A DNA stretch of 64,000 nt from Cohnella sp. OV330. GTDB lineage: Bacteria > Bacillota > Bacilli > Paenibacillales > Paenibacillaceae. The position numbers and the translations under genes were made by a program. Positions 7,624 through 14,930 of the stretch are shown here, piece by piece (the stretch's first letter is position 1; every line of letters begins with the position of its first letter). The notes beneath the pieces are model-generated. The model worked only from the letters and a program-made list of their open reading frames with translations. It searched no databases and was not told the origin of the DNA. The DNA lies in the NCBI RefSeq assembly GCF_900112065.1, contig NZ_FOKE01000014.1:1-64000 (forward strand). Direction: 5' to 3'.

Positions 7624-8553
7624 TCAGGAACGGCTCGCGTACGCATCAAGCGACACCGGCGCGCCCCGAGCGTTAAGGCTACTCTCCGCGGCGTCCAGGA
7701 AGCGAATGATCGCCTGCGTCTCTTCGGCAGGGACCGGCGGGATGCCCGTATCGAAAAAGGAGACCGCGTCCGCGATCAACCGAGCATAATGAACTTTGAA
7801 TTCCGGATCGAGCGCAAGCGCCATAGTTTCGTCCCCGATCCGGACTTCAGCTTCGTAGACGTAACCTGCCTCCGGGCGCTTGCAGATGGCCGTGCCTGTC
7901 CGGCCGTCCGTCCACTCGCCCACGATGCGGTCGAATTCGTCGCAGCGCTCGGTTCGTACGGAGAGGCAGTCCTGTCCGAGGATCGCGAACAGCATCTCGG
8001 CGAGATGAATGCCGTACCAATAGTAGATCGATTGCGTCGGTTCGATCTGAAGCGGACCGCCAGCGGTCGCTTCAAGTATCGGCGCCTCTCCCAACGAAGC
8101 CTGCCCCATGGCGCCTTGCACGGCATACCGAAGGGCCGAAACGCTGAATATCGGTGTTCCGAATTCCCGCGAAAGGACCTCGATCTCGGCGGCATCGCGT
8201 CCGGATATGGCCAGCGGCTTGTCGATAAAGACAGGCTTGCCGTACGGCGCGACGCGTGCGAACAGCTCCGTGCGCACCCGGCCGTCGATCGACAGCAGCA
8301 TGAGCGCATCGCAGGATCCGGCAACCTCTTCCGGCGTGTCCGCACGGCGAATGCCGTGTTCGGTCTCGAGCCTTCCCATGATCGTCCCGACGCGCGACGC
8401 GCTGAGCGGAAAATCCGGCGACCCGCCCGGCCAAGCCATCGCGACGCGGTAACCGGGCACATGCATCGGGTCTTTCGGATCGTTTAGCAGCCCGGCGAAC
8501 GTACTCGCGTGGGAGGAGTCGGTGCCGATCAGTCCGATGGTGCGGAACTTCAC
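7624..8553 (-). CDS. Gfo/Idh/MocA-family NAD(P)-dependent oxidoreductase
   Basis: 309 residues. The N-terminal Rossmann segment reads IGLIGTDSSHASTF, and FIDKPLA matches the nicotinamide-side EKP motif of the family (here DKP). The C-terminal half has the expected alpha/beta sheet with IHLAEMLFAILG. These enzymes oxidise or reduce sugars, inositols, sugar acids and related compounds; the substrate cannot be read from sequence. The start is GTG at 8553, overlapping the amidohydrolase stop (GTGA), with AAGGTGGG 6 bases upstream. Last gene of the islet. Confidence 0.85.
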   Translation of the reverse strand: MKFRTIGLIGTDSSHASTFAGLLNDPKDPMHVPGYRVAMAWPGGSPDFPLSASRVGTIMGRLETEHGIRRADTPEEVAGSCDALMLLSIDGRVRTELFARVAPYGKPVFIDKPLAISGRDAAEIEVLSREFGTPIFSVSALRYAVQGAMGQASLGEAPILEATAGGPLQIEPTQSIYYWYGIHLAEMLFAILGQDCLSVRTERCDEFDRIVGEWTDGRTGTAICKRPEAGYVYEAEVRIGDETMALALDPEFKVHYARLIADAVSFFDTGIPPVPAEETQAIIRFLDAAESSLNARGAPVSLDAYASRS

Positions 8554-9776
8554 GGACGCCCACCTTCTTCTGCAGGAATGCCGAACGCCAGCGGGCCTTC
8601 TTCGAGTCTTCGCGACGCGATGCCCGCGAGCAGCGCCGCTCCGAGCGGCAGGCAAGCCTCGTTCAGCTCGAAACGGGGATGGTGCAGGCCGAACGCGCGC
8701 TCGGCGCCCTCGGCCGGACCCGAGCCGAGCCAGAAGAAGCAGCCGGGAACATGTTTCAAATACTCGGAGAAATCTTCGCCCGCGAGCGTCGGGGCGGCTA
8801 CGAGCCTTGTGCCGGGCCCCGCTACCGCGTCGATCGCCTCCCCGACCTTCCGCGCCGCTTCGGAATGGTTCACCAGCACCTGCGTCTGGCGGATATACGT
8901 CAGGCTCGCGCGGCAGCGATAGCCGTCCGCGATCCGCGTCACGATCCGCTCGATGCCTTCGGGCAAGCGCTCCCTAACTTCGGGATCGAAGGCCCGGACG
9001 GTGCCCGTCATGCGGCAGGCCGACGGAATCACGTTGTTCGCGTCTCCCGCATGGATGCTGCCGATCGTCACGACGACCGGATCGAACGGCGACGTCTCGC
9101 GAGAGACCAAGCTCTGCAGCGACATGACGATCGCGCTGGCGCAGACGATCGGATCGATGCCCTGATCGGGGATGGCGCCGTGCGCGCCCTTGCCCTCGAC
9201 CAGGATCTCGATGCGGTCGACCGAGCCCATCAGCGGGCCAGGCCGCACGGACGCCAAGCCGGCGGACAGCGTAGGCAGGTTGTGCAGACCGTAAATCTCT
9301 TCGACGCCCTCCAGCACCCCTTCGCGAATCATCGCCTTGGCGCCTTCGTTGATCTCTTCCGCCGACTGGAAAATGAGCCTGACCGTACCCTTAAGCGTCG
9401 ACCGCGCCTGGACCAACAGCTCGGCCGCTCCGAGCAGCATCGCCGTATGCGCGTCATGCCCGCAGGCATGCATCGCGCCGGGACGCTCGGAGGCGAACGG
9501 CAGTCCGGTCTCCTCGGCGATCGGGAGCGCGTCCATGTCGGCACGGAGCGCGACGACAGGACCCGCGGCATCCCCGACGATATCGGCTACGACCCCGTGT
9601 CCGCCGAATTCCGTGCGGCACGCCAGTCCGAGCGCGCTTAGCCGTTGCGCGACGAGACGCGCCGTCTCGCGCTCCTCGAAGCTGAGCTCGGGAAATCGGT
9701 GCAGCTGCCGGCGAAAGGACGTCAGATCGTCGGACAACAGCGCCGCTTTCTCTTTCCATGCGACGTTCCCGCTCAT
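8550..9776 (-). CDS. M20-family amidohydrolase (M20D, IAA-amino-acid hydrolase/N-acyl amino acid deacylase type)
   Basis: 408 residues. Metal-binding and catalytic motifs are intact: ALRADMDALPI, ACGHDAHTAMLL with the Cys ligand typical of subfamily M20D, a Glu-Glu pair in FQSAEEINEGA, HNLP, and GEDFSEYLKHVPG near the C-terminus. Members hydrolyse N-acyl or conjugated amino acids, releasing a free amino acid. The start is ATG at 9776 overlapping the sdaAA stop (ATGA) with AAAGGCGG upstream; the open frame continues upstream inside sdaAA but is not coding there. Translational coupling to serine dehydratase suggests the released amino acid may feed it. Confidence 0.88.
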   Translation of the reverse strand: MSGNVAWKEKAALLSDDLTSFRRQLHRFPELSFEERETARLVAQRLSALGLACRTEFGGHGVVADIVGDAAGPVVALRADMDALPIAEETGLPFASERPGAMHACGHDAHTAMLLGAAELLVQARSTLKGTVRLIFQSAEEINEGAKAMIREGVLEGVEEIYGLHNLPTLSAGLASVRPGPLMGSVDRIEILVEGKGAHGAIPDQGIDPIVCASAIVMSLQSLVSRETSPFDPVVVTIGSIHAGDANNVIPSACRMTGTVRAFDPEVRERLPEGIERIVTRIADGYRCRASLTYIRQTQVLVNHSEAARKVGEAIDAVAGPGTRLVAAPTLAGEDFSEYLKHVPGCFFWLGSGPAEGAERAFGLHHPRFELNEACLPLGAALLAGIASRRLEEGPLAFGIPAEEGGRP

Positions 9777-10660
9777 GAGCGGCCGCCTTTCTTGCGCAGG
9801 TCGCTCAAAATCGCTTTTCCCGTAGGCGTCTGGGCAAGGCCGCCCTTCGCCGTCTCCCGGTGCGCTTCGGGCATGGCGGCTCCAATATCCTTCATGACGC
9901 CGATGACCTCGTCCGAAGGAATGACGCTGCGCACGCCGGCAAGCGCCATGTCGGCCGCCGCGAGCGCGGTCACCGCGCCGAAGCCGTTGCGTACGATGCA
10001 GGGGATCTCGACGAGACCGCCCACCGGATCGCAGATCAGGCCGAGCGAATTTTTGAGGGCGAGTCCGACCGCATGGACGGCCTGCTCCGGCGTGCCGCCG
10101 CGCAGCTCCGTCAGCGCGCCGGCGGCCATGCCGACCGCCGAGCCGACCTCTGCCTGGCAGCCGCCCTCCGCGCCGGAAATGAACGACTGGTTCGCGATCA
10201 CGTAGCCGATCGCGCCGGCCGCGAACAGGGCTTCGACCATCCGGTCGTCGGTCCAGCCGAACCGCTCCTGCGTGCTCACGAATACGCCCGGAATGATCCC
10301 GCATGAGCCTGCGGTCGGCGTGGCGATGATGCGACCCATCGAGGCGTTGACCTCGGATACGCCTAGCGCATAGGCCAGCGCCGCGCTAGCTTCGTCGCCG
10401 AGCGCCGTTCCGCCGAGGGCCCGGTATTCCATGACCCGCTTCGCGTCTCCGCCCGTAAGCCCGCTTCGCGACTTCGTCTCCTCCGTCGTGCCTTTGCGGA
10501 CCGCTTCCTTCATGATCTGATAGTAGCTGGACATCTGGCCGACGACCGTTTCCTCCGTTTGATCCGATTCCCGGACTTGTTCCTCGATCATATAGCGGCC
10601 GATCGTCATATTCGCTGCCCGGCATTGCGCCGACAGCTCCGCAAGCGTGGCGAATCTCAT
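9773..10660 (-). CDS. sdaAA: L-serine dehydratase, iron-sulfur-dependent, alpha subunit
   Basis: 295 residues. The catalytic subunit of the two-part Gram-positive type L-serine deaminase, converting L-serine to pyruvate and ammonia with a 4Fe-4S cluster. Cluster cysteines are seen in SCGIIPG, GGCQAEVGSA and CDPVGGLVEIPC; the GRIIATPTAGSCG block is typical. It overlaps sdaAB by ATGA and the amidohydrolase by ATGA, so the three are translationally coupled. A relative acting on another beta-hydroxy amino acid cannot be excluded. Confidence 0.94.
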   Translation of the reverse strand: MRFATLAELSAQCRAANMTIGRYMIEEQVRESDQTEETVVGQMSSYYQIMKEAVRKGTTEETKSRSGLTGGDAKRVMEYRALGGTALGDEASAALAYALGVSEVNASMGRIIATPTAGSCGIIPGVFVSTQERFGWTDDRMVEALFAAGAIGYVIANQSFISGAEGGCQAEVGSAVGMAAGALTELRGGTPEQAVHAVGLALKNSLGLICDPVGGLVEIPCIVRNGFGAVTALAAADMALAGVRSVIPSDEVIGVMKDIGAAMPEAHRETAKGGLAQTPTGKAILSDLRKKGGRS

Positions 10661-11340
10661 TCTTGCCCCTCCTCTTGGTTCAGATCGACGAGGCGAACGC
10701 GCTCGACTTGCGGCAGCGCTTGGAGCTCGCGTCTCACCTCTAGCGGTACCGACTGATCCATCTCCATGACGGTGAGCGCGCGACCGCTCCTGCTCTGCCG
10801 GTCCACCTCCATCGCGCGGATGTTCAGGTCGACCCGCCCGACGATCAAAGCCATCGCGGCAACGGTTCCAGCCATGTCCCGATGGTTGACGAGCAGCGTC
10901 GGACAGTCCGCCCCGAACTTGACGTCGAAGCCATCCACGTTAACGATCTCGACATTGCCCCCGCCGATCGAGCATCCGATCATCGTCGTTTCTTGTTCTC
11001 CCTTTCGCAGGATGAACCGAACCGTATTGGGATGGCCGCCGGGCCGAAGCTCCGTGCCGAACCGCAGCTTCATGCCGGCCGCTTCGGCGAGCGCGATCGA
11101 ATCCCGGATCCGGTCGTCGTCCGGCGCGCAGCCGAGCAGGCCGGCGGTCACGGCAAGATCCGTCCCGTGACCCATATACGTTTCCGCGAACGAGCCCGAA
11201 AAGATGATGTCCGCTTCGTCCGGCTGCCCCCCGAGCGCCTGGCGCGCCGCAAGTCCAAGTCTCGCGGCGCCGGCCGTATGCGAGCTGGAGGGGCCGATCA
11301 TGCTGGGACCCATAATCGAAAACACGTCTTTAAATCGCAT
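10657..11340 (-). CDS. sdaAB: L-serine dehydratase, iron-sulfur-dependent, beta subunit
   Basis: 227 residues. Begins FKDVFSIMGPSMIGPSSSHTAG, the family's N-terminal signature, and ends in an ACT domain (about 150-220) which in this family binds serine. It partners the alpha subunit encoded next. ATG start behind GGGAGAGGGG. It lies 36 bases after the aldolase gene, the largest gap within the metabolic part of the islet. Confidence 0.94.
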   Translation of the reverse strand: MRFKDVFSIMGPSMIGPSSSHTAGAARLGLAARQALGGQPDEADIIFSGSFAETYMGHGTDLAVTAGLLGCAPDDDRIRDSIALAEAAGMKLRFGTELRPGGHPNTVRFILRKGEQETTMIGCSIGGGNVEIVNVDGFDVKFGADCPTLLVNHRDMAGTVAAMALIVGRVDLNIRAMEVDRQSRSGRALTVMEMDQSVPLEVRRELQALPQVERVRLVDLNQEEGQE

Positions 11341-11376: not shown

Positions 11377-12447
11377 TTAACGTTCCTGCAGCCATTCTTC
11401 AAGATGGGCCGCGACGAACGCATCGTCGTTCAGGTCCGGATACTGCGCGTAAACGCGGTCGATCTCCTCGGCTTGACCCGGCGACAGCTCCTCATGCGGA
11501 TTCAGGCACCAGGTTCCCTGAAGCAAACCTTGGCGGCGCAGCACCTCGTGGATGCCCGGGATGCAGCCTGCGAACTGGTGCGAAGGATCGAAAAATGCCG
11601 CGTTGGAATCGGTCACTTGGATGTTGCGGACAAGCCATTCCTTCGCGATCGCCGGCTCCCTTCTTGCCGTCTTGATCTCTTCGAGAAGCGCGACCGCCTT
11701 CTGCGTCCATACCGCCCAGTGGCCCAGCAGACCGCCGACTACCTGCTTTTCTACCGTTTGGCCGTCAATCGTAAAGCGGTACGTCGTGAACAGGTCCGCG
11801 ACGATATTGTCGTCGTTGCCGGTGTAGAGCGCGATCTCGTCCTTGCGAACAGAATGGCAGACGGCGCGGGCCACGTCAAGCGTCTGGTACCGGTTGAACG
11901 GCGCCATCTTGATCGCGACGACGTTCGGGATGTCGGCGAACGCGCGCCAGAATTCGTAGGTGAAAATTCTGCCGCCGACCGAAGGCTGCAGGTAGAAGCC
12001 GATGACCGGCATGAGCGCGGCGACTTGCCTCGTCCGATCGAGCAGCGCTTCCTCGGTCAGCTGTCCGAGCCCGCCCATGCTGAGCAGCGCGGCATCGTAG
12101 CCGAGCTTAAGCGCAATCGCCGTCTCGCTTAGCGCTTGCTCGACAGGCCCGCATACGCCTGCGACCTTGATGAACGGGCGGGAAGGCGCAGCCTTGTCGA
12201 CTTCTTCAGCGGCCATGCGCAGCACGGTCTCGTACAGATCGTGCTCCGAATCGCGAATCTCGAACTGAGTGGAATGGACCCCGACGGCCACGCCGCCGGC
12301 TCCCGAAGCGACGTAGTAGCGCGTGAGCGCGCGCTGCCGCCGCTCGTCGAGCTTGCGGTCCGCGTCCAGCGCGAGCGGGTGCGCCGGGATAACCAAGCCG
12401 TCCTGCAGCGCCGCGTTCAGCGCGTCCGACAAATATACGGTCGCCAT
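11377..12447 (-). CDS. Dihydrodipicolinate synthase/N-acetylneuraminate lyase superfamily protein
   Basis: 356 residues, a TIM barrel related to DapA and NanA but longer than the usual 290-300. The Schiff-base lysine is probably that in VVAIKMAPF. The beginning (VIPAHPLALDADRKLDERRQ) and GAGGVAVGVHSTQFEI differ from true DapA, so lysine synthesis is unlikely. The superfamily makes or breaks C-C bonds with pyruvate as one partner. ATG start at 12447 sharing one base with the previous stop (TGATG), with AAAGGGG upstream. Confidence 0.82.
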   Translation of the reverse strand: MATVYLSDALNAALQDGLVIPAHPLALDADRKLDERRQRALTRYYVASGAGGVAVGVHSTQFEIRDSEHDLYETVLRMAAEEVDKAAPSRPFIKVAGVCGPVEQALSETAIALKLGYDAALLSMGGLGQLTEEALLDRTRQVAALMPVIGFYLQPSVGGRIFTYEFWRAFADIPNVVAIKMAPFNRYQTLDVARAVCHSVRKDEIALYTGNDDNIVADLFTTYRFTIDGQTVEKQVVGGLLGHWAVWTQKAVALLEEIKTARREPAIAKEWLVRNIQVTDSNAAFFDPSHQFAGCIPGIHEVLRRQGLLQGTWCLNPHEELSPGQAEEIDRVYAQYPDLNDDAFVAAHLEEWLQER

Positions 12448-13463
12448 CAGAATTTCCCCTTTCGTTCTTGGAAGTGGGTCGGTTTGTTCCATGTCGCGCC
12501 GCCTTGCAGCACCCACTCTGCCGTCCAATCGATCATTTGCAACAGCGAGACGCTCGGATAGCCGAACAGCTGATGTGACTTCGAGGCGTTATTCAGAAGC
12601 GCGGTCTCGGATTCCTTGCCCTCGAACGTCGCTTCCTTGCCAAGCCGCTTGGACATTTGGCCAGCCGCCCATCTCACGGACATCGTCTCCGGTCCCGTCA
12701 CGTTCAGGATAGCCGGGGGGCTCGAAGCGATCGCCAGGCTGCGCAGCGCCATCGCGTTGGCGTCGCCTTGCCAGATGACGTTCGCATAGCCGGTCGTCAG
12801 ATCGATCGGGCGCCCTTCGTTGATCGCCCGCGCCAGCTCCAGCAGTACGCCGTACCGCATGTCGATCGCGTAGTTCAGCCTGAACATCGTCATCGGCGTG
12901 CCGTATTTGTGCGAGTGGTACTCGAAGATCCGTTCTCTGCCCAGCGTCGACTGCGCATATTCGCCGAGCGGTTCAGGCGCGATGGATTCGTCCGCGCCGC
13001 CGCCGCCGACCGGCATGAACGGATAAATGTTGCCCGAGGAAAAAACGACGATACGCGAATCCTTATACTTTTCGGCAACGCGCCCCGGCAAGTACGTGTT
13101 CATCGCCCACGTGAAATGCTCGCGGCCCGTCGTACCGAACTTGTTGCCCGCCATATAGATGACGTTCGAGGCGTTCGGCAGCGCCTTCAGCGCTTCGTCG
13201 TCGAGCAGCTCGCACGAGATCGTCTCAACGCCTGCAGCTTCAAGCTCCTGTCGCGTCTCGCTGCTGCTGAAGCGCGATACGCCGATGACGCGCTTGCCAA
13301 GTCCCCCGGCGCGCACGGCATTGGCCGCCAGCCGGGCCAAGCTCGGCCCCATTTTCCCGCCTACGCCAAGCACGACGATGTCCCCGTCGATCGACGACAG
13401 CTGCTTGATTAACGCTTCCGACGGTTCGGCCAGCTTTGCTTCCAGTTGTTCTATCGTATGCAT
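12447..13463 (-). CDS. Atypical NAD-dependent epimerase/dehydratase (extended SDR)
   Basis: 338 residues. The Rossmann motif VLGVGGKMGPSLARLA is preceded by about 55 residues, longer than usual. The strand and loop FSSGNIYPF and the later FRLNYAIDMRYG match extended SDRs. The catalytic YxxxK, however, reads Y-A-Q-S-T: Lys is replaced by Thr. Either the chemistry is altered or the protein binds rather than turns over its ligand. ATG start at 13463 behind GAGAGGAG. First of six tightly packed metabolic genes. Confidence 0.8.
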   Translation of the reverse strand: MHTIEQLEAKLAEPSEALIKQLSSIDGDIVVLGVGGKMGPSLARLAANAVRAGGLGKRVIGVSRFSSSETRQELEAAGVETISCELLDDEALKALPNASNVIYMAGNKFGTTGREHFTWAMNTYLPGRVAEKYKDSRIVVFSSGNIYPFMPVGGGGADESIAPEPLGEYAQSTLGRERIFEYHSHKYGTPMTMFRLNYAIDMRYGVLLELARAINEGRPIDLTTGYANVIWQGDANAMALRSLAIASSPPAILNVTGPETMSVRWAAGQMSKRLGKEATFEGKESETALLNNASKSHQLFGYPSVSLLQMIDWTAEWVLQGGATWNKPTHFQERKGKF

Positions 13464-13518
13464 GAGATCAGTCTCCTCTCGACTTGTACCTGATCCCATC
13501 ATACGTGCGATCGCTATA

Positions 13519-13563
13519 TAAAGACAGGTCCGTTTATCGTCTTTAAATTCATCCACAATGGAT
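13519..13563 (-). promoter_or_regulatory. Candidate operator/promoter of the catabolic islet
   Basis: The 128-base gap between the regulator and the epimerase gene holds an inverted repeat TAAAGAC-N13-GTCTTTA (13519-13545) and a second short one, ATCCA-CAA-TGGAT (13551-13563). A possible -10 box (TTATAT/TATATA, 13515-13521) overlaps the first repeat, with no good -35 box, as expected for an activator-dependent promoter. Binding by the neighbouring regulator is inferred only. Confidence 0.4.
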
Positions 13564-13591: not shown

Positions 13592-14914
13592 TCATAAATG
13601 GTGGTCCGCCAAAAAGGAGAAACGATACACTTGGCGCGGTCTGCCCTTAGGCATTTTTTCCATGCCGGCGATGCCGACCAGTCCCGCATCCGCCCACTGA
13701 AGCAGCAGCCGATGCGCGCTGCGCACCGTAATGTTGAGCATCGATGCGAGCTCATGAACCTGGTAGTCGTACTTGCCGTGTCGGGACATATAGGCGAGCA
13801 GCTTGCTCAAATAGGCCCCCGTCATCCCCGCCTCCTCCGCTCGCCGCAGAAGCTCCGGATCGAGCGGCGCCATAATCGACGCTACCGGATCCGCCATTTC
13901 CAGCGGGCCGATGAGCGTTCGATCTTCCCGTACGATAAAGCAGGCGTTGCCCCCCGCGGCGACCGATTTGCGAAGCGCGCTCCGCGCGTTCGAACCGGCC
14001 TCGCTGGCCGTCGCGCCGAAGCCGATGCCGATGCTGAGCGATATTCCGTAGGACAGATTGGCGTCTTTGGCGAGCGGGATCGTTTTATAGCCGCCCGTTT
14101 CGCGCTCGAAGATGCCCCGGGTCGTAAAAAACAAATATTCGTCGCCGCCGACGGGCGTCAAGTAACCGTCCAGCGATTCGACGTAGTCGAGCACCATTCG
14201 GTGAATGTCCAGCTTGAGCTTTTGGATCTCGTGCTCGCTCGCGCTTCGCTGCACGAGCTTGCCGAATTCGTCTACCGTCACCATGCCGACGACGATCTGC
14301 GATTCCTTGCCTTTGCGGGATTCGGTCGACAGCAGCGCGCGTTCGAGCGTCACGATGATATCCTCGTCGGACGGCAACAGCAGCGCGTGAGGAATCTTCA
14401 CCCGAGAGAGCTCTTCCGCGACCCGCTCCACGCCGGTGAAGGCGTACACGCAGTCCTGAGATCCGGCGACTTTGCGATGATGCGCGACGAGCTTGTCCGG
14501 CGAAGCATAGGACGGACCTTCATAGACGGCGACCTTCAGTCCTTCAAGCGCCAGATCCCGAAGCGTCCGCATCACCATCGTCTTGGTCAGCGAATCGACG
14601 GATAAAACCGCCTCCGGCCCGAGGCGCCCTGCCCGCTGCGCTTCGAACAACGCTTTGTACAAGCCCGCCCCCGTCAACGGAACATGATGGACCGGCACGG
14701 CAACCGGCTTTTTCTCCTTGAGCAGACGCTGAGGCGCGGGTCCGGACAACAGCAGCGCCTCCACCTCGTCCTCAAGCAAGGCAGCTGTATCGGGAGCTTC
14801 CTGCTCTTGCTCGACGAGACGAACGACAGGCTCGAACGATGGGAACGCATTCATGACTCTTAATACGCGAGAAACGACGGCCTCCGTCCCTACGATCCCG
14901 ATTTTGATGTGCAT
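13592..14914 (-). CDS. Transcriptional regulator with sensor-like, GGDEF-like and winged-helix domains
   Basis: 440 residues. Residues 1-195 look like two Rossmann-like lobes and resemble in layout the ligand-sensing half of PrpR-type regulators. Residues 205-330 resemble a nucleotide-cyclase fold: VTVDEF (about 212-217) at the first metal position, PVGGDEY (254-260) at the GGDEF signature, then SIGIGFG and a final helix SALRKSVAAGGN. Residues 365-435 form a winged helix-turn-helix (YQVHELASMLNITVRSAHRLLL) ending in GRPRQVYRF. ATG at 14914 is preceded by AGGAGG at good spacing. It has its own terminator upstream and heads the islet. I do not recognise a named family. Confidence 0.75.
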   Translation of the reverse strand: MHIKIGIVGTEAVVSRVLRVMNAFPSFEPVVRLVEQEQEAPDTAALLEDEVEALLLSGPAPQRLLKEKKPVAVPVHHVPLTGAGLYKALFEAQRAGRLGPEAVLSVDSLTKTMVMRTLRDLALEGLKVAVYEGPSYASPDKLVAHHRKVAGSQDCVYAFTGVERVAEELSRVKIPHALLLPSDEDIIVTLERALLSTESRKGKESQIVVGMVTVDEFGKLVQRSASEHEIQKLKLDIHRMVLDYVESLDGYLTPVGGDEYLFFTTRGIFERETGGYKTIPLAKDANLSYGISLSIGIGFGATASEAGSNARSALRKSVAAGGNACFIVREDRTLIGPLEMADPVASIMAPLDPELLRRAEEAGMTGAYLSKLLAYMSRHGKYDYQVHELASMLNITVRSAHRLLLQWADAGLVGIAGMEKMPKGRPRQVYRFSFLADHHL

Positions 14915-14930
14915 GGTACTTCCTCCTGTG

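Follow-up and report, generated by a model that had tools for sequence, protein, structure and literature searches.

What does a domain of the nucleotide-cyclase type do in the middle of a transcription regulator? The question is raised by a gene, here called REG, in a 64,000-nucleotide stretch of Cohnella sp. OV330 (contig NZ_FOKE01000014.1, positions 1 to 64,000; hereafter the window). A preliminary description, made from the sequence, saw in its product a PrpR-like sensor half, a GGDEF-like domain and a C-terminal winged helix, and proposed that a regulator of this kind, acting on a local catabolic operon, would tie gene control to a guanine nucleotide or to c-di-GMP. By examining predicted models, profile matches and orthologue alignments, together with the neighbouring genes and their promoter in related genomes, we arrive at a different emphasis: REG is quite probably a one-component, metabolite-responsive transcription factor for one catabolic operon, working through a winged-helix dimer on an inverted repeat at the promoter of EPIM, the first gene of that operon. 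It is an unstudied type of bacterial gene switch and a variant of known regulator kinds; a literature search, judged by titles and the beginnings of abstracts, found no paper on this architecture.

Architecture of the regulator

The gene and its parts are laid out as follows, all on the minus strand:

13592..14914, minus strand: REG coding sequence, 440 amino acids plus stop
14920..14927, minus strand: Shine-Dalgarno-like AGGAGGAA upstream of the REG ATG, read from the sequence
14312..14914, minus strand: PrpR-type two-lobed sensor, residues 1-201 (fold match of the predicted model)
14303..14368, minus strand: connecting helix, residues 183-204 (predicted secondary structure)
13919..14302, minus strand: GGDEF-like domain of the GdpP / GTP cyclohydrolase III type, residues 205-332 (fold and profile matches)
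14135..14149, minus strand: GGDEY, residues 256-260 (sequence, conservation)
14114..14125, minus strand: TTRG family signature, residues 264-267 (R266 in 122 of 124 rows)
13619..13858, minus strand: winged-helix DNA-binding domain, about residues 353-432 (predicted secondary structure, conservation)

The three-part architecture of sensor, cyclase-fold domain and winged helix is confirmed as real by the predicted models, which bear out this side of the preliminary description: residues 1-201 take the two-lobed PrpR sensor fold, the model of residues 205-332 matches nucleotide-cyclase (GGDEF / GTP cyclohydrolase III) folds in a fold search, and the C-terminal winged helix is predicted at about residues 353-432. 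The motifs that had been named (GGDEY at 256-260, VTVDEF and the rest) were all located in REG as given. The reading frame is open over its full length in most REG-positive relatives, and the nearest named relatives found for the window are C. rhizosphaerae, Cohnella sp. GbtcB17 and C. ginsengisoli.

The closest structural parallels to the sensor are PrpR N-terminal sensors (2pju, 2q5c), and a search of the whole protein with Pfam PrpR_N reported no match at E ≤5. PrpR belongs to the sigma-54 activators and carries an AAA+ domain; in REG the sensor is followed instead by the GGDEF-like domain and the winged helix. Four sensor residues (D107, H146, T160 and L169) are invariant in 124 of 124 homologue rows.

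A conserved but degenerate cyclase fold

Conservation was read from two alignments. The 80 orthologue rows comprise 78 of 80 orthologue loci (the best 80 of 153), the window and L172, and represent 79 distinct places because L172 repeats the record of L063; the 124-row homologue alignment leaves out two pieces each of L066 and L080, which are too short. In the orthologue rows the mean share of the commonest residue is highest in the GGDEF-like domain, at 0.805, followed by the winged helix (0.731) and the sensor (0.592), which makes the middle domain the most strongly kept part of REG; across the whole family, Q206 and the glycines of G296-x-G298-x-G300 are kept in 124 of 124 rows. Such conservation exceeds what a bare dimer module would need and speaks for some ligand; judging from the alignments, a ligand or a tight dimer contact would be expected of this part rather than the role of a pure spacer.

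The closest sequence relatives of the domain are GdpP and GTP cyclohydrolase III. The kinship with GGDEF or GTP cyclohydrolase III families that the preliminary description suggested holds in profile searches for the former, in its GdpP version, but falls short for the latter: Pfam GGDEF_GdpP (PF24898) scores 32.9 bits on the domain alone, above its curated cut-off of 30 (29.5 bits, just below it, on whole REG), and GTP cyclohydrolase III (PF05165), whose fold is similar, scores 19.0 bits on the domain, below its curated cut-off of 21.3. The match to GTP cyclohydrolase III (MJ0145, 2qv6) spans only the second half of the 252-residue chain. The GGDEF domain of GdpP/YybT is the nearest Pfam family, and the GdpP sequences in our alignment, like the REG domain, lack the first metal Asp. 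GdpP itself is described in the available text of PMC3164647 as a membrane c-di-AMP phosphodiesterase of PAS-GGDEF-DHH/DHHA1 arrangement, with SSDQF in S. aureus; unlike REG, it has no DNA-binding domain. PF00990 matches only 6 of 57 relatives of the REG domain, with a best E of 0.023.

The possibility that GGDEY is a chance match was rejected, because fold, profile and conservation agree. The motif GG[D/E]E[Y/F] is present in 64 of the 80 orthologue rows and in 4 of 44 other homologues, the rest of which carry GPGRY, GGGEY, DRDEI and others.

Active-site residues and nucleotide binding

Does the domain work as a cyclase, or bind a nucleotide at all? With hhalign, REG was set against 17 diguanylate cyclase domains from its own genome (probability 93.8, E 1.8e-7) and its positions were compared with the PleD residues D327, N335, D344, K442 and R446, as listed in the available text of PMC7288161. 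The first metal Asp (D327) falls on position 213, where the 80 orthologue rows have N in 48, K in 7, H in 7, D in 6, T in 5 (REG of the window among them, T213), A in 4, V in 2 and Q in 1. The next Asp of that strand, at position 215, is kept in 80 of 80. The guanine contacts N335 and D344 correspond to V221 (A 36, V 30, I 8, Y 3, F 3) and I230 (V 67, I 13), and are hydrophobic in every one of the 80 rows. The third letter of the GGDEF motif (position 258) is D in 70, N in 7, E in 1 and another residue in 2, and the fourth (259) is E in 78. K442 corresponds to position 318 (K 64, R 11, V 5), which is V318 in the window, and R446 to G322, a glycine in 80 of 80. The c-di-GMP I-site (RxxD), which stands before the GGDEF motif and maps to S247..G250, is absent: no row of the 80 has R at 247, and all have G at 250. 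Invariant in the same rows are R266, K277 and R311.

Because these key residues are replaced, metal binding by the usual pair, guanine recognition and c-di-GMP feedback are lost in REG, and on its sequence the protein should not make c-di-GMP; the supposed tie to a guanine nucleotide or c-di-GMP thereby finds no support. An active diguanylate or hybrid cyclase joined to a DNA-binding domain, making its signal at its own promoter, is extremely improbable. Such an enzyme might be read from the retained GGDEY and from five orthologues with Asp213, GGDE[Y/F] and Lys318 (L100, L102, L105, L106 and L107, from Paenibacillus ehimensis, P. tyrfis (two), P. elgii and P. oleatilyticus), a single small clade which, by analogy, would carry the full set of metal ligands. 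Yet both guanine contacts are replaced throughout the 80 rows, the PF00990 matches are few and weak, and the genome already holds 21 GGDEF matches of at least 116 bits; the window protein in particular was rejected as an active cyclase on T213, V318, the hydrophobic guanine contacts and the absent I-site.

The judgement that nucleotide binding is plausible survives in part: the guanine-specific residues are gone, but D215, E259 and D258 are largely kept, so binding of another kind could still occur, and weak binding, as in GdpP, is possible by analogy. A domain that binds ATP, GTP or a relative without forming a cyclic product would make the operon answer to the energy or nucleotide status of the cell, a second input in addition to the metabolite. 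We regard this as rather unlikely, even with the three invariant basic residues and relatives that point that way: the first metal Asp is equally missing from the aligned GdpP sequences, ATP is bound and slowly hydrolysed by the GGDEF domain of YybT/GdpP (available text of PMC3164647), and a degenerate GGDEF domain of Caulobacter binds GTP and activates a phosphodiesterase (available text of PMC7288161). The first metal Asp, however, is missing in 74 of 80 rows, five rows, that of the window included, have V as the equivalent of K442, the equivalent of R446 is always G, and the signature is kept in few of the other homologues; by eye, R291, an ATPase residue of YybT, aligns with A320 of REG, and the ATPase activity of S. 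aureus GdpP has been argued to be unimportant (both as given in the available text of PMC3164647).

Most likely, then, the GGDEF-like domain of REG is a degenerate cyclase fold that would serve in transmission and in the dimer. In S. aureus GdpP, point mutations in the GGDEF domain change the domain next to it in a way that does not depend on any ATPase activity, according to the available text of PMC3164647. A bolder version, in which a widespread regulator family reads two signals, a metabolite through the PrpR-type sensor and a nucleotide through the palm domain, with GGDEY selected within a nucleotide site and the metal set of the Paenibacillus clade as part of the same picture, seems to us quite unlikely; if it were true, DNA binding would depend on a nucleotide bound, or even turned over, beside the promoter.

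The adjoining operon

Downstream of REG, on the same strand, lies a block of genes for which the comparison covers the 80 orthologue loci:

12447..13463, minus strand: EPIM, NAD-dependent epimerase/dehydratase family, the probable target operon's first gene (Pfam Epimerase; 77 of 80 loci)
11377..12447, minus strand: DHDPS-like aldolase-family gene (Pfam DHDPS; 74 of 80 loci)
10657..11340, minus strand: L-serine ammonia-lyase beta subunit (TIGR00719; 56 of 80 loci)
9773..10660, minus strand: L-serine ammonia-lyase alpha subunit (TIGR00718; 56 of 80 loci)
8550..9776, minus strand: M20-family amidohydrolase (TIGR01891, Peptidase_M20; 46 of 80 loci)
7624..8553, minus strand: probable Gfo/Idh/MocA-type oxidoreductase, last in the block (by-eye label and start codon)

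The last of these genes has no Pfam or NCBIfam match, and relatives of it, mostly weak, occur in 34 of the 80 loci. Among 296 genomes across the order (EPIM called at E ≤1e-100, REG at E ≤1e-80), 87 have both EPIM and REG, 31 only EPIM, 2 only REG and 176 neither (Fisher p 2e-45, a value that ignores kinship, the REG-negative genomes being largely of other genera). The association extends to another phylum: on a Prescottella plasmid the immediate neighbours of a distant REG homologue are genes of the L-serine ammonia-lyase, EPIM-like and DHDPS-like kinds, and an M20 gene lies within a few genes of it. Gene neighbourhood, co-occurrence and the operator described below agree with the idea that REG regulates a local catabolic operon, and REG probably controls the adjoining breakdown genes.

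A predicted operator at the EPIM promoter

Between REG and EPIM lie three further elements:

13519..13545, no strand: predicted operator TAAAGAC-N13-GTCTTTA (perfect match)
13522..13527, minus strand: putative -35 hexamer CTGTCT, within the operator (read from the sequence; TTGTCT/CTGTCT recurs in relatives)
13498..13503, minus strand: putative -10 hexamer TATGAT, 18-nt spacer (read from the sequence; recurs in relatives)

In a consensus promoter scan this EPIM promoter was not reported. Upstream of EPIM, relatives share a block of the form tAtTTAAAGAC.aTTtAaaGActTGTCTTTatATa, followed by a TATGAT-like hexamer. When inverted repeats with 7-base arms were sought with arms and spacer left free, TAAAGAC-N13-GTCTTTA was the commonest, present in 37 of 93 EPIM upstream regions (at most 1 in five shuffled sets). 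At least 12 of the 14 arm bases match in 76 of the 93 regions, on which the pattern itself had been picked, and in 0 of 1860 shuffles.

A pattern search allowing up to two mismatches found the only perfect operator of the 7.47-Mb genome at the EPIM promoter; the 12 other sites with two mismatches, compared with 17 for a reversed control pattern, represent no excess. Among 60 genomes, the window's own included, 15 carry a perfect operator and all 15 are REG-positive, while a REG orthologue at E <1e-100 is found in 26, leaving 11 REG-positive genomes without a perfect site. This conserved, predicted operator on the promoter of the downstream operon is new here.

Two loci, L066 (Cohnella ginsengisoli, 8001-9321) and L015, have a broken REG frame, in two overlapping pieces lying in different frames; the operator upstream of EPIM is still perfect in both despite the interruption.

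Operator and regulator across genomes

Whether the operator belongs to REG can be judged from genomes that have EPIM with and without it. A 36-bp matrix trained on 69 sites (from the orthologue loci and the window; G565 and G482 are included, as L067 and L045) was applied with a cut-off of -2.75, the 99% point of 400 shuffles, and with a stricter one of 6.4, the highest shuffle. The REG-positive set scored consisted of 15 genomes (13 of 89 REG-positive genomes plus G028 and G036), and the comparison set of all 31 EPIM-positive genomes without REG at E ≤1e-80. EPIM upstream regions exceed -2.75 in 15 of 15 REG-positive genomes but in only 5 of the 31, the other 26 scoring below it (Fisher p 3e-8, kinship ignored). 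At the stricter cut 12 of the 15 remain; of the 31, G599 and G452 do so, and G685 lies right at the threshold. Six of the 15 have a variant site and low scores (-1 to 11), mostly because the inner spacer is one base longer.

In a renewed profile search, a related or a broken REG was recognised in each of the five exceptions. Four of them (G452, G627, G661 and G685, all of genus g21) carry a related regulator (E about 1e-100) that lies roughly 10 kb away from EPIM; in the fifth, G599, REG lies in three pieces beside EPIM, and its sister G461 has REG whole. Site and regulator may have changed together in the four g21 genomes. This re-search covered 7 of the 31 REG-negative genomes, plus G461, so that the others may contain weaker REG relatives.

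The chief competing explanation is that another regulator binds the site and REG is simply a neighbour. The link does rest on comparison, and in three further g21 genomes (G171, G364 and G434), where a related regulator is also found close to EPIM, the scores stay under the cut, at -10 to -17. We nevertheless consider another owner very unlikely: in 8 of the 15 REG-positive genomes EPIM is on another contig than REG (these are drafts, and the contigs may be neighbours), yet the site is present, in three of the eight as the variant; G001 and G031, which belong to the window's genus and have EPIM, show no REG relative at E ≤1e-5 and no operator; and every one of the five exceptions has some form of REG. 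The link between operator and REG is shown by comparison across genomes, and REG is the probable owner of the site.

Two forms of the site may be recorded here. In L271 (G470), L272 (G473) and L273 (G487), where REG and EPIM are on separate contigs, the operator has one extra base in the inner spacer (AAAGACCTTGTCTTT). In L249 (G452), L256 (G627), L262 (G661) and L264 (G685) a related operator reads TTTTAAGG(A/T)CGAT(T/A)TAAAGACGTTGTC.

Proposed mechanism

For REG as a metabolite-responsive factor, we suggest the following course of events. The PrpR-type sensor would bind a small molecule, in all probability one of the pathway's substrates or intermediates; the connecting helix and the GGDEF-like domain would pass the change on to the winged helix, most likely through the way they set the dimer; and the winged-helix dimer would bind the inverted repeat, with half-site (T)TTAAAGAC, which overlaps the putative -35 of the EPIM - DHDPS-like - serine ammonia-lyase - M20 operon. 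Since the operator is centred near -40, a class II activator is slightly favoured over a repressor. A loosely bound nucleotide might act as a second input.

Family spread and related regulators

A search of 398 Bacilli genomes gave REG homologues in 145 (E ≤1e-10), often several per genome, with 111 at E ≤1e-40; the other 34, whose best E is weaker than 1e-40, are counted on their search score. Homologues also occur in two Actinomycete plasmid records (Nonomuraea and Prescottella), and three annotated plasmid copies are labelled "hypothetical protein". At 43 further loci the neighbours include EPIM and DHDPS-like genes in 17, M20-type hydrolases in 15, an oligopeptide-ABC-type ATPase in 13 and a common hydroxylase-type cluster in 3. 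From these neighbourhoods the homologues look like a family of local regulators whose catabolic operons differ, in keeping with an N-terminal part that senses ligands. The conserved cluster stands beside distant REG homologues in L175, L188 and L193, and is annotated in L175 (a Bacillus badius plasmid) as 4-hydroxyphenylacetate 3-hydroxylase, flavin reductase, RidA and DUF1028.

A close known parallel in domain order is the PucR/CdaR class, whose members, such as MabR (Rv2242), likewise combine a sensor, a degenerate GGDEF-like domain and an HTH, and act as dimers. According to the available text of PMC11617747, the solved GGDEF fold of MabR carries HGTWL in the A-site position and RHGR in that of the I-site, and has neither an A-site nor an I-site sequence. 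Its sensor is globin-like whereas that of REG is PrpR-type, and in REG the HTH is a winged helix and GGDEY is kept. Membership of REG in PucR/CdaR was rejected on Pfam models: GGDEF_2 and HTH_30 went unreported at E ≤5 (a search in which the HMMER filters drop most matches above about 0.1). No PucR GGDEF_2 structure was among the 50 fold matches listed for REG, a list that leaves room for similarity.

Several regulator classes (PucR/CdaR and AraC) carry a degenerate GGDEF-like domain between their sensor and their HTH, and the ligand of the one in MabR is stated to be open in the available text of PMC11617747. The REG family offers an unusually good test case for them, as the domain is its best conserved part, the regulator probably acts on a single target, and an operator has been predicted. 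Sensor and DNA-binding domains are in one chain, and the operator is tied to REG by comparison.

In the same genome, three AraC-type regulators (L114, L115 and L117) have a GGDEF-like domain before the HTH, as REG does. GGDEF_2 scores 47.3 bits in L115 and 24.9 in L117 (cut-off 24.5), and L114 scores 24.2 to GGDEF_GdpP, under the cut-off of that model. They differ from REG in their AraC HTH and, mostly, in the GGDEF-like family concerned; where REG has its PrpR-type sensor, L115 has a receiver domain and L114 a weak Cache match.
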